Source of the DNA: an uncultured Planctomycetota bacterium
GTDB taxonomy: Bacteria > Planctomycetota > Planctomycetia > Pirellulales > Thermoguttaceae
Assembly: GCA_900318195.1 (NCBI GenBank)
Contig: ONJR01000060.1
Coordinates: 1 to 64,000, forward strand
Length of the DNA stretch: 64,000 bases
Reading direction: 5' to 3'
Every line of letters starts with the position of its first letter. Position 1 is the first letter of the stretch. Position numbers and translations under genes: made by a program. A model generated the notes under the pieces. It had not been told where the DNA came from. It did not search any database and worked only from the letters and a program-made list of their open reading frames with translations. Below are positions 47,410 through 54,168 of the stretch, piece by piece.

Positions 47410-48450
47410 ATGCGAACCTCATCCTCCGCCCTAATTCGTATTCGCGCGCTTCGTCTCGCGTTACTCGTCGCAATCTTTTTCGCGCTGTCGTCTGCGTTAT
47501 TATGCGTTTCGTCATCGTTGCAACGTTGTGCCGACGCTTTTGGTCAGGAACTCGATCTTAGCGCGCTTGACGACGACGCGCGCGCCGCGACGGACGACGC
47601 GGCGCCTCCGGTCGAGGCGGCTCCTTCCGACTCGTCGAGCGTCGAAGTTTCGTCGCCGCCGTCCTCAGTTGGTCGCGCCCGATTTCTCGACCTGCTTCTC
47701 GCCAGCGGATGGATAGGTCTTGTTCTTTTAGCGGCGTCTATCGTTGCCGTTTCCCTCATAATTCGTTTGGCTCTTGCGCTTCGCCGTTCGTCTTTCATTC
47801 CGTTGGATCTGGCGCGCGAGTTGCGCGACCGACTGTCGCGTCGCGAACTTGACGGCGCGTTGCAACTCGCTAACGAGTCGCCGTCTTTTGTGGGCGCGGT
47901 TGTCGCTCAGGGACTAAAAGAAAGTTCGAGAGGTTGGACCGCTATTGAGAAAGCGGTCGAAGACGCGGCCGCCGATTACGCCAGTCGAACATTCCGTCGC
48001 TCCGAACCTCTCGCAACGATTGGCAACGTCGCCCCTATGCTCGGACTACTCGGCACCGTCATAGGTATGGTAACAACGTTTGGCGAAATAGCGGTCTCCG
48101 ACGGTTCAGGTCGCAATCTTGCCAACGGTATTTATTTCGCGCTCGTTACAACAGTCGACGGTCTTATCGTCGCCATTCCAGCGCTTGTCGCCCACTCCAT
48201 GATCAACGCGCGAATTGCAACGCTTGTTTCCGAAGGAATCGAGATGATCAATGCGATCTTTGATCCGCTCAAACCGGGCGCTTCTCAACGCGTTGCTACT
48301 CGAGAAGACGCTAGCGCAAGTTCGACCGCCGAAAGCGCGCCAACGCTCGGACTACGTGAAATTCCGTCAGACCGTTCTTCTGCACGAGCAGAACGTCCGC
48401 GCCAGCGTCCCGCTCTGACGCTTCCCCCCACGCGCACCGATCCAGAATAA
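47410..48450 (+). CDS. MotA/TolQ/ExbB-type proton channel protein
   Basis: A 346-residue inner-membrane protein. An N-terminal signal or helix (ALRLALLVAIFFALSSALLC) is followed by an Asp/Ser/Pro-rich stretch, a helix at GWIGLVLLAASIVAVSLIIR, the family motif SFVGAVVAQGLKESSRGWTA, and the conserved pair TIGNVAPMLGLLGTVIGMVT and LANGIYFALVTTVDGLIVAI. This matches TolQ/ExbB, which uses the proton gradient to drive outer-membrane work. The usual ExbD/TolR gene is not next to it; rpoN follows 50 bases on instead. The Pro-rich C-terminal tail (RPRQRPALTLPPTRTDPE) is extra. Its partner must lie elsewhere. Confidence 0.92.
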   Translation: MRTSSSALIRIRALRLALLVAIFFALSSALLCVSSSLQRCADAFGQELDLSALDDDARAATDDAAPPVEAAPSDSSSVEVSSPPSSVGRARFLDLLLASGWIGLVLLAASIVAVSLIIRLALALRRSSFIPLDLARELRDRLSRRELDGALQLANESPSFVGAVVAQGLKESSRGWTAIEKAVEDAAADYASRTFRRSEPLATIGNVAPMLGLLGTVIGMVTTFGEIAVSDGSGRNLANGIYFALVTTVDGLIVAIPALVAHSMINARIATLVSEGIEMINAIFDPLKPGASQRVATREDASASSTAESAPTLGLREIPSDRSSARAERPRQRPALTLPPTRTDPE

Positions 48451-48499: not shown

Positions 48500-50305
48500 A
48501 TGTCAAGTTCATTCGGCGGTCCTCGCTTCGGGTTCGGGCTTTCAGAAGAGCGTCGCATCGCTCTGCAACGCGTCAATAAACTGAAGCAAGAATTGTACGC
48601 GCAACAGAAAAAGATTCAATTCTCGAATCTACTAGAGCGCTCGAACCAAGACGTCGAAACTTATGTTGAATCTCAAGACAACGTTTTTCTAGGCAGAAGT
48701 CGTAGCTCAACCCCTTCTCGATCGAGCGCCCCCAACGGCGAGCTTGGTTCGACTCAACCGGAAGTCGGTTACGATGAGTCTCCCGAGCCAGAGGACGTCG
48801 GCGCCTACTTAACGCCTCGCGCTTTTATCTCCGCACGCGCGCCGTCCCGCGAATATTCCTATCATTCCGACGAAGACGCGTATTTTGATCCCGTGGCTCC
48901 TCAGCAAGAGACGTTACGCGATCATCTGCTCGAACAGCTAGAACTGGACGGCAAATTTAGTCGTCTTACGCCCGAGACCAAAGCGCTATGTCGCGTCATT
49001 ATCGACAACCTCGACTCTTCCGGCTATTTAAAGTCCGAAGCCGAATCTCCGCTTGACGGTCCCGCCGAACCGGATTCCGCTTCAAACGCAGACGCCGAGT
49101 CGGTTCGCGCTATTGTTGAATTCGATAGTCTTTTCGACATGATTTCAACTGCCGAATTGCGCGCGCGCGCGAAAAAGGCGCTAGACGACTACTATTCCAT
49201 TAAGAGCGTTTCGAAGTCGTCCCGGCGTCTTGCTCGCGAGGAATTTGACTCGATCGTCGGCAAAAAAACCACCAAGGAAGAACGCGATCTCGCTCGCAAA
49301 GCGTTAGACGCCATTCAACAGCCTCAGCATGAGCTCGACCCGCTCGACGCGCTCTTTCCACACAAGCCGAGCCCCGAAGAGCGCAAGCGAGCAGAAGCGG
49401 CGCTCAAAATCGTCCAAGAGATGGATCCTCCCGGCGTAGGCGCGCGCAATATGCGCGAAAGTCTACTATTGCGTCTTAAACCCGACGCAGAATTTCACGA
49501 TCAGCTCAAACTTATCATAACGCGCCATTTTGACGATTTCATTAAGAAACGCCTCGGCGCGCTCTCCAGTCAGACGGGTATCACGCACGACGAACTCATG
49601 CAGATCTTCGCCGCCCCTTTTCCGTTCTACCCTTCGCCGAGCGAACTCTTCGCAGAGTCCCCCGCGCAACTCAACTGGATACAGCCAGAAATCTTCGTCG
49701 AAAAGAACAGTCAAGGTCGCTGGATCGTTAAACTCGACGATTCGAGCGACGATCTCGAACTTGATCCGTATTACAGTAAGCTCCTCTTTTCCAAACGAGT
49801 CGATAAAAAGACCAAAGAGTACTTGCGCCGACAGTATGTAGAGGCTCAAGCGCTTGTCGACGCGTTGCGCAATAGAAAATCGACGCTCCTTCGCGTCGCC
49901 AAGGCGATCGTCGACTTCCAATCCGATTACTTCGACGATCCAACGAGCTTCCCCAAGCCGCTCACTCAGCAACAAATAGGCGATAAACTTGGTCTCGATT
50001 CTTCCACCATATCGCGCGCGTGCAATAATAAATGGCTTGCGACGCCTCGCGGCTTCGCCTCGTTTCGGGACTTCTTTCCCAAAGCGGTCGCAGGGGACGC
50101 GACGAGTTCTAACGTTGCTGAAAAGATCCGCGAGCTCGTGGCTCAGGAAGTCAAAAGCCAACCTCTTAGCGACGAGGCGCTAGCCGCAGAACTCAAGCGC
50201 AAGTATTCGCTCGACGTGAGTCGCAAGACCGTTCAGGAACACCGTGATCGCCTCGGAATCCCCAATAGTCGCGAACGCAGGCGTCTTGCCAAGACTTCGC
50301 AATAA
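48500..50305 (+). CDS. rpoN: RNA polymerase sigma-54 factor, divergent N-terminus
   Basis: A 601-residue factor for enhancer-dependent transcription. The core-binding region includes LRDHLLEQLEL, CRVIIDNLDSSGYLKS and MDPPGVGARNMRESLLLRL. The HTH region is PLTQQQIGDKLGLDSSTISR with NKWLATPRGF. The RpoN box near residue 573 is SRKTVQEHRDRLGIPNSRER, the canonical -24 reader. Region I is hard to find: the N-terminus (SEERRIALQRVNKLKQELYA then IQFSNLLERSNQDVETYVES) only weakly resembles the Gln/Leu-rich activator-interacting segment. Two Lys/Arg/Glu-rich inserts lengthen it beyond the usual 480. It lies 50 bases after the channel gene on the same strand. Confidence 0.93.
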   Translation: MSSSFGGPRFGFGLSEERRIALQRVNKLKQELYAQQKKIQFSNLLERSNQDVETYVESQDNVFLGRSRSSTPSRSSAPNGELGSTQPEVGYDESPEPEDVGAYLTPRAFISARAPSREYSYHSDEDAYFDPVAPQQETLRDHLLEQLELDGKFSRLTPETKALCRVIIDNLDSSGYLKSEAESPLDGPAEPDSASNADAESVRAIVEFDSLFDMISTAELRARAKKALDDYYSIKSVSKSSRRLAREEFDSIVGKKTTKEERDLARKALDAIQQPQHELDPLDALFPHKPSPEERKRAEAALKIVQEMDPPGVGARNMRESLLLRLKPDAEFHDQLKLIITRHFDDFIKKRLGALSSQTGITHDELMQIFAAPFPFYPSPSELFAESPAQLNWIQPEIFVEKNSQGRWIVKLDDSSDDLELDPYYSKLLFSKRVDKKTKEYLRRQYVEAQALVDALRNRKSTLLRVAKAIVDFQSDYFDDPTSFPKPLTQQQIGDKLGLDSSTISRACNNKWLATPRGFASFRDFFPKAVAGDATSSNVAEKIRELVAQEVKSQPLSDEALAAELKRKYSLDVSRKTVQEHRDRLGIPNSRERRRLAKTSQ

Positions 50306-50517: not shown

Positions 50518-53500
50518 ATGGAAAAGCAGGCGTCTCTCCACGCAGAAGCGCATGAGGAGCAACTCCCTCCGCTCTGGACAAAAGGTTTTACAGCGCTTCT
50601 CGTCACACAATTTTTGGTCGCATTAAACGACAACATCTTCCGTTGGCTGATCATTCCGATCGGTAAGTGCGCGGTCGGTTGGGCCGACAAACAAGACACG
50701 ATCCGCGGAATAGGCTCACTTGCGTTCCTCGTTCCGTTCCTCCTCTTCGCCACCTACGCCGGATACTGTTGCGATCGTTTCAATAGGCGCAAGGTCATCA
50801 TCTGGTGTAAGGCGGCCGAACTTTTCGTTATGCTGTTAGGCACAGTAGCGATTCTCGTGCAATCGGTGCCGTTCATGCTTGTAACGCTCTTTCTTATGGC
50901 GACCCAAAGCGCGTTCTTCAGTCCTGCGAAATACGGCAGCATACCTAATATCGTGCCACAATCACGTATTTCCGAAGCGAACGGCTTTGTTACAATGACG
51001 ACAATGATCGCGTGCATAGGCGGTCAGGTCTTGGGAGGCGTTCTGTTCGTTCTCACGACGTTCAATGCGAAGAAACCGATTGAAGGCTCGGGCGGTATGA
51101 CGAATTGGATAATTTGGGCGAGCGTCATCATCGGAGTCGCCGTGCTCGGTCTCATTTCGAGCTTTTTCCTACCGTCGATTAAAGCGGCGGATCCTTCTGC
51201 GCGCTTTCCTGTCAATCCTATCGAACAAACGTGCGCGGATCTCAAACTTCTCGTGAACAACCGGTATCTCTTCTGGATCAGTATTGCAAGTTCTTTCTTC
51301 TGGGGAGTCGGCGCGCTTGCCCAACTTAATATAGACAAATTCGCAACAGAATATCTGAACGTCCGTCAAGATTGGGCAATGTTGTTGCTCGTAGCGCTTT
51401 CGGCTGGTCTTGCGCTCGGCGCGCTTATCGCCGGGAAACTTTCACGCGGACGCATAGAACTCGGTCTCGTTCCCTTCGGTGCGCTCGCGATTATAGTCTT
51501 TTCGTTCATTTTATATTTCACGCCGTTCGTTCCTCACGAAATTGCGTCGCCTAAATCTTTCGGCTTTATCTTCGGAGGGTTCGGCTTATTTTTACTTGGT
51601 CTTTCGGCTTCGATGTACGACCTTCCGCTCGTCGCGGTACTTCAGACAGAAAGTCCCGTCGAGCATCGCGGTCGAATTTTAGCGGCGTACAACTTCTTTT
51701 CCTTTGCGGCAATGGCGCTCTTTGCGATGTTCCAAAGCACGCTCGGCAGTCTCCCGTTACGTCAAACCGTCAATTCAGAGGGCAAAACGGTTATGACCGG
51801 ACTAAACGGGGCAGAAATCTGGCTTGTAACGTCGATTATAAGCATCCCAGCGCTCTATTTCACACTGCGCGCGTTCGCCATCCCTGTTTTGCGCGTACTC
51901 GTTATCAATTGGCTCAAGTTAGTCTACGGTATGCGCGAATATGGAGTCGGCAATATTCCTAAGGAAGGTCCGGTTCTACTCCTCGGCAATCACGTCTCCT
52001 TCTTAGACGCTTTGATCGTCTACACAACTTCGTCCAGACCCGTCCGGTTCATCTCTGACCAAAATTTCCTGCCGGCGAAGAGTAAACTTGCCAACTTCGT
52101 TATTCGGAAAACAGGAGTCATACGGTTTGACCCCAATTCGCGGAAATCAACCGCGTATATGTTGCGCGAAGCTCAGACTGCGCTCCAAAACGGGGAAGTT
52201 GTGTGCATCTTCCCCGAAGGCGCCATAACACGCGACGGTCAAACGCGCGCTTTCAAACCCGGCTTCCTTGCTCTACTTCGCAAGACGCCGAACGCGCCAA
52301 TTATACCGTTTGCAATAACAGGTCTCTACGGCTCGCGCTTCGCCTACGCCGGTCCCAAGGGTTATAAACGCCGTACACCTTATCGACTGACTATTTCCTA
52401 CGGCGCGCCTTATTCAGTCGAAGCCGAACGCGCCAAGGGCTGTAGCGACGCTCATATTATGCAGAAACTCCTGCACATCGTTCAGGAACTCAATATTGAC
52501 GCAGTCGATTACCGTAAACACCCTAAAAACGTCTTCCTCTATACTCCAGCGCGCGGTGCAATTCGCGGCTTACGCCTTTCAGGCTCCCGCCGACATTTCG
52601 GCGATTCCACCGGTAAAGAAGTAACGGGTAAGGAGGCGCTTCTTCAAATCCTAGTCCTTCGCAGGTTGCTCCATCGTATTCTTCCTAGCGAAAAGTTCGT
52701 TGGAGTTTTATTGCCAACTTCGGTTGCCGGCGTACTAGTCAACGCGGCGCTCGCCTTCGATCGTCGTATTCCGATCAATTTGAATTATACGTTCACCAAC
52801 GACGTGAATAACTATTGTATTCACAAAGTCGGAATTAAGACAATAGTCGCGTCTTCTCAACTTCTCAAGAAATTGCCCAAGCTTGATCTGGAAGCCGAGA
52901 TTCTTCCGCTCGAAGAAGTTGCGAAGGAGCAAATCCGCACGAGCGATAAACTCGTCGGTTTTCTCGAATCGCTTCTCCCCACGTGGATACTAGAACGCGT
53001 TCTTGGACTAACGAAAGAAAAGCTGTCAGATATCAATACGATCGTCTTCACCAGCGGCTCGACCGGTCTTCCGAAGGGCGCTGTTCTTACAAACGCGAAC
53101 GTTTCGGCCAACGCCCAGAGTTTCGCGCAATCCGCTATGCCGGCCTACAATCTGAGTCTCGCGGGCGTGCTTCCCTTCTTCCATTCTTTTGGGTACACGG
53201 TAACCGTATGGTTCCCTCTATACCATCCGTACGCCTGTTACTACCATTACAATCCGCTCGATTATAAGGGGGTCGCCTCCGTTACGAAAAAATATCGTCC
53301 CCACTTGTTTGTAGCGACGCCAACGTTCATGCGCACCTACCTTCGCAAGTGTTCTAAAGAGGACTTTGAATCCGTATACTTTCCAATCGTCGGCGCAGAA
53401 AAGGCGCCAGCGCAACTCTACGAAGACTGGAAAGAAAAGTTTGGCGTCTCGCTAAACGAAGGGTACGGCGCAACTGAACTCTCGCCGGTTATGAGCCACA

Positions 53501-54168
53501 ACATACCCGAATCGGACGCGCCCGATAATATAACGCCCTATCACAAGGATTTTTCAATCGGTTGTCCAGACCCTAACTTCGTTGCCAAAGTGGTCGACCC
53601 CGAAACTTGGGAAGAGTTACCGCCTAATACGCCCGGGATGATGCTCGTTAAAAGCAACTCCGTTACCGTAGGATATTATCAGGATCAAGAAAGAACGCGT
53701 TCGATCTTTAAGGACGGCTGGTACATAACGGGCGACATTGCGAAAATCGACGAAGACAACTTCATCTTCATCACGGGTCGCGAAACGCGCATTTCGAAGA
53801 TCGGCGGCGAAATGGCGCCGCACGCCTTCATCGAAGAAAAATTGCAAGAGGCGCTTCAAGAAATGTCGAGCGTTGCCACCCTCGAAAAGACCGACGACGA
53901 TTCGACCAATTCCAGCGCGCTTAATCTTGTAGTAACCGCCGTTCCTGACGAACGCAAGGGCGAAAAACTCGTCGTACTGTACGTCAACCTCCCCTGCGCG
54001 CCTGAAGAGCTATGCAAGCGAGTTTCCGAGATTGGAACGTTGCCGCAACTCTGGATTCCTTCCCCTGTCAACTTCAAACAAGTCCCCGAAATCCCTGTTC
54101 TAGGCACAGGAAAACTGAACCTCAAAGAAGTGCGCGACACGGCGAAACGACTCTACGGTCTTGAATAA
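50518..54168 (+). CDS. Trifunctional LplT - PlsC - acyl-ACP/CoA ligase fusion (Aas-like)
   Basis: A 1216-residue membrane protein that combines three steps of lysophospholipid recycling. Residues about 15-440 are an MFS transporter of the LplT type (LVTQFLVALNDNIFRWLIIP, twelve helices). Residues about 470-670 are a PlsC acyltransferase: LLGNHVSFLDALIVYT (HX4D near 489) and VVCIFPEGAITRDGQ (near 560). Residues about 700-1216 are an AMP-forming acyl ligase: NTIVFTSGSTGLPKGAVLTN (near 842), LNEGYGATELSPVMSHN and GWYITGDIAKIDEDNFIFIT. Flippase, acyl ligase and acyltransferase would import lyso-lipid, activate a fatty acid and re-acylate. E. coli splits this between LplT and Aas; the triple fusion is known in other phyla. 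Confidence 0.95.
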   Translation: MEKQASLHAEAHEEQLPPLWTKGFTALLVTQFLVALNDNIFRWLIIPIGKCAVGWADKQDTIRGIGSLAFLVPFLLFATYAGYCCDRFNRRKVIIWCKAAELFVMLLGTVAILVQSVPFMLVTLFLMATQSAFFSPAKYGSIPNIVPQSRISEANGFVTMTTMIACIGGQVLGGVLFVLTTFNAKKPIEGSGGMTNWIIWASVIIGVAVLGLISSFFLPSIKAADPSARFPVNPIEQTCADLKLLVNNRYLFWISIASSFFWGVGALAQLNIDKFATEYLNVRQDWAMLLLVALSAGLALGALIAGKLSRGRIELGLVPFGALAIIVFSFILYFTPFVPHEIASPKSFGFIFGGFGLFLLGLSASMYDLPLVAVLQTESPVEHRGRILAAYNFFSFAAMALFAMFQSTLGSLPLRQTVNSEGKTVMTGLNGAEIWLVTSIISIPALYFTLRAFAIPVLRVLVINWLKLVYGMREYGVGNIPKEGPVLLLGNHVSFLDALIVYTTSSRPVRFISDQNFLPAKSKLANFVIRKTGVIRFDPNSRKSTAYMLREAQTALQNGEVVCIFPEGAITRDGQTRAFKPGFLALLRKTPNAPIIPFAITGLYGSRFAYAGPKGYKRRTPYRLTISYGAPYSVEAERAKGCSDAHIMQKLLHIVQELNIDAVDYRKHPKNVFLYTPARGAIRGLRLSGSRRHFGDSTGKEVTGKEALLQILVLRRLLHRILPSEKFVGVLLPTSVAGVLVNAALAFDRRIPINLNYTFTNDVNNYCIHKVGIKTIVASSQLLKKLPKLDLEAEILPLEEVAKEQIRTSDKLVGFLESLLPTWILERVLGLTKEKLSDINTIVFTSGSTGLPKGAVLTNANVSANAQSFAQSAMPAYNLSLAGVLPFFHSFGYTVTVWFPLYHPYACYYHYNPLDYKGVASVTKKYRPHLFVATPTFMRTYLRKCSKEDFESVYFPIVGAEKAPAQLYEDWKEKFGVSLNEGYGATELSPVMSHNIPESDAPDNITPYHKDFSIGCPDPNFVAKVVDPETWEELPPNTPGMMLVKSNSVTVGYYQDQERTRSIFKDGWYITGDIAKIDEDNFIFITGRETRISKIGGEMAPHAFIEEKLQEALQEMSSVATLEKTDDDSTNSSALNLVVTAVPDERKGEKLVVLYVNLPCAPEELCKRVSEIGTLPQLWIPSPVNFKQVPEIPVLGTGKLNLKEVRDTAKRLYGLE

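Follow-up and report, generated by a model that had tools for sequence, protein, structure and literature searches.

Diverged region I and altered RpoN box in the sigma-54 factor of a planctomycete genus

The sigma-54 factor (RpoN) encoded in the window analysed here, a 64-kb stretch of DNA from an uncultured planctomycete, belongs to a genus whose proteins carry an N-terminal stretch that standard domain searches miss. Sequence comparison indicates that this stretch is a region I homologue under constraint, which has diverged past Pfam detection and has not been lost. We consider it likely that the protein, the single sigma-54 of its genus, is an activator-dependent factor whose region I has diverged strongly. 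The unexpected result is that R456 of the RpoN box has changed twice in one family, alongside a changed region I. The genome of origin (4.18 Mb) is 86% complete, and its relatives in public databases are genomes of uncultured planctomycetes and Thermoguttaceae, several of them recorded as coming from rumen, colon or rectum. The features discussed below are the following:

47410-48450, + strand: MotA/TolQ/ExbB-type gene, directly 5' of rpoN
48500-50305, + strand: rpoN (sigma-54), 601 residues, the only copy found in the genome; TIGR02395 score 281.7 bits, over the equivalog cut-off of 277.35
48542-48697, + strand: diverged region I, residues 15-66, with the core KQELYAQQKKIQFSNLLER; matched by the region I HMM over residues ~18-58, conserved in 18/18 proteins, predicted helix 16-59
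48698-48889, + strand: fast-changing region II linker, residues 67-130; identity 0.24, pLDDT < 50 over residues 59-134
49040-49369, + strand: insertion in the core-binding domain, residues 181-290, specific to the genus and predicted to be helical
49373-49768, + strand: best stretch of the Pfam core-binding domain (CBD), residues 292-423
49817-50284, + strand: Pfam DNA-binding domain (DBD), residues 440-595; long helix 436-473
49967-50023, + strand: helix-turn-helix reading the -12 element, residues 490-508; R383 kept, H377 replaced by Asp
50219-50248, + strand: altered RpoN box SRKTVQEHRD, residues 574-583; R456 replaced by Lys, K460 by Glu

The rpoN frame follows the MotA/ExbB-type gene after ~50 bases, the short gap pointed out in the first-pass annotation. 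The order pgk (minus strand), exbB-type gene, rpoN and a fusion gene recurs in those loci of the genus that hold enough DNA to tell. The fusion, immediately 3' of rpoN at window positions 50518-54168, joins an MFS transporter, an acyltransferase and an AMP-binding (AMP-ligase) enzyme in 1216 residues and is kept across the genus. The search for a second rpoN that the same annotation had proposed returned none in the 86% complete genome. A misplaced start codon with a canonical region I hidden upstream of it has next to no probability. The 27 codons that stay open 5' of the ATG in the window would leave room for one; none of them is an in-frame start codon, and for 9 of the 12 genus RpoN that begin with ATG, the window protein included, a stop closes the upstream frame no more than 10 codons away. 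The missing upstream start and the nearby stops lead us to conclude that the annotated start is right and that there is no hidden longer N-terminus. Together with a six-frame PF00309 search that recovered nothing near the rpoN start, they were the grounds for rejecting such an extension. The remaining six of the 18 genus rpoN (L020-L025) have TTG as their sole start, at a common position.

The first-pass annotation had described the N-terminus as lacking a recognisable region I, and a standard search agrees with it: the Pfam model Sigma54_AID (PF00309) does not match the window RpoN even at E ≤ 10. Nothing in the genome exceeds the PF00309 cut-off of 23.8, the best score being 11.8 bits at another place. 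The model scored none of the three genus N-termini tried and all five N-termini from other genera, three of them divergent. In a sister subclade with an intermediate region I, the model still scores 27 and 33.9 bits for the two members tried. A model built from the family, however, does detect region I. We constructed an HMM from 41 region I sequences of other genera, four of which represent the divergent sister subclade; a further sequence (L129, one of 42) was left out for want of a matched end motif. All 18 RpoN proteins of the genus are matched by this HMM in a co-linear manner around residues 18-58; calculated for a search of one sequence, the full-sequence E-values range from 1.4e-5 to 0.023. 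When the first 75 residues were shuffled, the score was reached in 0 of 500 shuffles for 17 proteins and in 1 of 500 for the remaining one. The same columns are brought together by MAFFT, which places the IQ of RMIQSMEILQL on the IQ of KKIQFSNLLER. A profile-to-profile comparison of the genus and its relatives with hhalign is weak (P 0.011, probability 3.9%). Compared with the relatives, region I of the genus has ~16 extra N-terminal residues and lacks two residues near its end. The segments IQFSNLLERS and QDVETYVESQ, spotted earlier as a "weak echo" of region I, are thus more than an echo and belong to the actual, diverged region I. The alignment with relatives that had been suggested reveals a conserved homologous stretch, which on the annotation's own terms refutes a loss.

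Conservation among the 18 RpoN of the genus is strong over the first 60-70 residues. Residues 27-50 form the best-conserved part of the N-terminus, with a mean pairwise identity of 0.83 and 14 of 24 columns invariant, which comes near the RpoN box (0.85). In the linker (residues 67-130) of the same 18 proteins the identity drops to 0.24, and none of the 64 columns is invariant. The ratio of nonsynonymous to synonymous divergence (omega) between the window gene and its closest relative reaches 0.288 in the linker, as against 0.048 for region I, 0.093 for the CBD and 0.043 for the DBD. Among the eight pairs analysed, region I omega is defined and greater than zero in four, where it ranges from 0.035 to 0.105; dS is saturated in three pairs and dN is zero in one. 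AlphaFold2, run with 15 sequences, predicts region I as one helix (residues 16-59) with a pLDDT of ~85 over residues 21-40; at a pTM of 0.34, the model speaks for this helix and not for its packing or docking. All 31 Foldseek matches with E < 0.001 are sigma-54 chains.

The position of P17 in E. coli region I aligns with a Gln in the genus. Replacement of P17 by Ala abolishes interaction with the activator in E. coli, according to the accessible part of PMC9770992. Loss of P17 was rejected as a trait of the genus, since Gln also occurs there in sister genera with a Pfam-detectable region I.

The genome encodes two strong AAA+ bacterial enhancer-binding proteins (bEBPs), one of the response-regulator type, whose loop is GAFTDA, and one of the FHA type, whose loop is GAFTGA, so that the activator search proposed in the first-pass annotation was fruitful. 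Between one and three strong bEBPs are present in each of the 20 genus genomes. Of the genus loci examined, all 14 of the NtrC type have the loop GAFTDA and all 15 of the FHA type have GAFTGA, so that 29 of the 30 bEBP loci carry one of the two motifs. Part of the genus, a subclade, also encodes a third bEBP-like type (L105 and similar, E ~1e-50), of which the single locus examined has a degenerate loop, GAIPGV. We also considered that GAFTDA had changed together with the new region I. This was rejected because GAFTDA is found in genera with a canonical box as well, and because the NtrC-type bEBPs of the group with Thr at R456, described below, have GAFTGA in the four loci examined (three other members of its genus, g18, have GAFTDA).

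It is very unlikely that region I is functionally lost and that the factor works without activators. Such a loss would account for the failure of the Pfam model and for the missing Pro at the P17 position, but it is at odds with the strong purifying selection on the stretch, with its homology to region I and with the retention of activators in all 20 genomes, their loops being intact in 29 of the 30 loci examined. It also conflicts with PMC4551910, the available portion of which reports that no rpoN-bearing bacterium lacking a cognate activator had been found, and that deletion of region I gives little bypass in vivo. The activator-independent transcription envisaged in the first-pass annotation is therefore improbable for these bacteria. 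Under the activator-dependent reading, with the roles of region I, of its N-terminal peptide and of the GAFTGA loop taken from excerpts of PMC9770992, the region I helix would pack and keep the holoenzyme closed. Its N-terminus would be offered to the GAFTGA and GAFTDA loops of the two remaining AAA+ activators, which would release the closed state. The changes in region I may have followed a rebuilt core-binding domain and a small number of partners.

The RpoN box and the core-binding domain have changed in the same lineage as region I. Both the core-binding and the DNA-binding domains are recovered by Pfam in the window RpoN (116.7 and 140.9 bits), as had been stated earlier; the RpoN box, also described there as intact, is only nearly so, since it reads SRKTVQEHRD, with Lys at R456 and Glu at K460. 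We aligned 68 RpoN proteins: 18 from the genus, four from a subclade of g18, 38 others from the family or order and eight from Bacteroidota. R456 is Lys in all 18 genus proteins, Thr in all four of the g18 subclade, and Arg in the 38 other family or order members and the eight Bacteroidota. K460 is Glu in the 18 genus proteins, against Lys in the 50 remaining ones, and all 68 retain R455 and R383. In the part of PMC9770992 available to us, R455 and R456 are called invariant and assigned to the -24 element. This pair is not retained in the genus, where R455 is kept and R456 is replaced. The g18 subclade (L131, L132, L133 and L137) has the RpoN box ARTTINKYR and a diverged region I of its own, and other g18 members have Arg. 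Replacement of H377 by Asp was dismissed as a genus trait, as it is shared by five of the 38 other family or order members and by all eight Bacteroidota. The core-binding domain of all 18 genus RpoN contains an insertion of ~97 residues. The interval corresponding to positions 176-296 of P0001 spans 116-126 residues in the genus versus a mean of 22 (range 17-74) in the 38 others; over all 50 remaining proteins the range is likewise 17-74 residues.

We counted matches to TGGYAC-N5-TTGCW, a pattern for the -24/-12 consensus, in 119 genomes of the family, using the reversed pattern as a control. The genus of the window (g1) has 31 matches versus 136 for the control in 20 genomes, and the subclade with Thr at R456 has 11 versus 53 in four genomes. 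The g18 members with Arg have 19 versus 29 in three genomes, and one g18 genome in which RpoN was not found has 12 versus 15. In the other 91 genomes there are 994 matches versus 752 for the control. Because the reversed control is biased by composition, we give more weight to Markov expectations, which are based on 28-177 kb of DNA per group. In the genome of the window, two matches were seen versus 3.1 expected, and both overlap long open frames. The expectation for g1, from the DNA of its loci, is 1.0 per 4.18 Mb versus 31 matches in 20 genomes; for the Thr group it is 2.7 versus 11 matches in four genomes; for the other genera it is 3.9 per 4.18 Mb versus a mean of 10.9 seen per genome. 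Consensus sites are accordingly about 2- to 3-fold enriched in the 91 other genomes, an estimate taken from the expectation per 4.18 Mb with genome sizes unsummed, and are at chance in the genome of the window, in g1 and in the Thr group. Sorted by the residue at R456, the observed and expected counts show enrichment of consensus sites with Arg, but no clear enrichment with Lys or Thr.

Upstream of an ECF sigma factor gene, we scored sigma-54-like sites with a matrix whose weights are our own assumption, using a cut-off of 11 that was set after the scores were known. Such a site was found at 32 of 37 loci of other genera, mostly at a similar distance; on the opposite strand, 5 of the 37 had one. 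One additional locus was dropped because its anchor motif was not found. In the genus, none of seven relatives has the site, and one of seven has it on the opposite strand; the ECF proteins of the genus are only 40-43% identical to the query, which makes their orthology uncertain. One g18 genome with Arg at R456 (G036) likewise has no ECF upstream site. The presence of the site a few hundred bases 5' of the ECF gene in many related genera (L201-L230, L241, L244-L246) suggests a cascade from sigma-54 to the ECF factor in them. All seven ECF genes of the genus (L231-L237) are preceded by a near-identical block of ~40 bases that contains GYCGTTTCCNTTGTATACTC, with one mismatch in two of them. Elsewhere in the window and in the DNA of genus loci (372 kb, counting overlapping copies), GYCGTTTCCNTTGTATACTC does not occur with three or fewer mismatches, and occurs once with four. 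It can be forced into the -24/-12 register but also resembles an ordinary -10 region, and we make no claim that sigma-54 binds there. A new promoter element was also sought upstream of the NtrC-type bEBP gene, where an alignment showed nothing common across the genus, and 3' of the FHA bEBP gene, where inspection by eye showed nothing consistent.

These counts bear on the possibility that the whole module is decaying (its regulon reduced, selection on it relaxed, its sigma-54 heading for loss), which we regard as improbable. Chance-level consensus promoters and the GAIPGV loop would fit such a decay. So would the few activators, versus 5-24 bEBPs in 17 genomes of other genera of the family, but a low count is only partly upheld as a trait of the genus, as other gut genera have just 2-6 bEBPs and a canonical RpoN box. 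rpoN is present in 18 of the 20 genus genomes, and the two in which it was not found are only 65% and 82% complete. Its open reading frame is intact in 18/18 proteins, many CBD and DBD columns are invariant, and the low omega of region I and the DBD is at odds with relaxed selection.

With an activator-dependent factor as the preferred reading, a smaller regulon is probable, and a shift of the promoter consensus is possible. A changed promoter reading in the genus is plausible. The Lys and Thr forms might recognise another -24 element, or there might simply be few sites left in the regulon, and degenerate ones; we are less sure of this point. Only tentatively, and with the odds somewhat against it, do we propose that promoter reading was rewired twice in one gut-planctomycete family, with R456 turning into Lys in one genus and into Thr in a sister subclade, each time together with a remodelling of region I and a disappearance of consensus -24/-12 sites. 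The altered control suspected in the first-pass annotation would not come from a loss of region I, and it draws some support from the R456 change and the unenriched consensus sites. If promoter reading was indeed rewired, the family would hold naturally orthogonal sigma-54 systems, each with its own -24/-12 element. Even a changed reading as such would provide a natural experiment on the co-evolution of sigma factor and promoter, and sigma-54 parts possibly free of cross-talk with the canonical one. Among the matches listed in the open-access literature (including PMC9770992, PMC12316311, PMC4551910 and PMC11929135), the accessible text nowhere describes a diverged region I or RpoN box in gut Planctomycetota.

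The absence of an AID domain from a database scan need not equal a loss of activator control. A survey of sigma-54 factors (PMC12316311), as its available part describes, sorts RpoN by matches to PF00309, PF04963 and PF04552, and a protein like the window RpoN would fall among the AID-lacking ones in that scheme. The window RpoN resembles canonical RpoN of Planctomycetota and E. coli in its succession of region I, region II linker, CBD, long helix, helix-turn-helix and RpoN box, in passing TIGR02395 and in the presence of bEBPs in the same genome. It differs from them in a region I below Pfam detection, in the ~97 extra residues of the CBD, and in R456K and K460E. With the activator-bypass forms of sigma-54 made by deletion of region I, as far as the excerpt of PMC4551910 goes, it shares a region I that the standard model does not recognise; unlike them, the genus has a conserved region I, and its activators remain. 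A parallel exists within the same family, in the four g18 genomes with R456T, where R456 is changed, region I is diverged and consensus promoters are at chance. There the substituted residue is Thr and not Lys, K460 is kept, region I is Pfam-detectable in the two members tested, and the CBD has no insertion.
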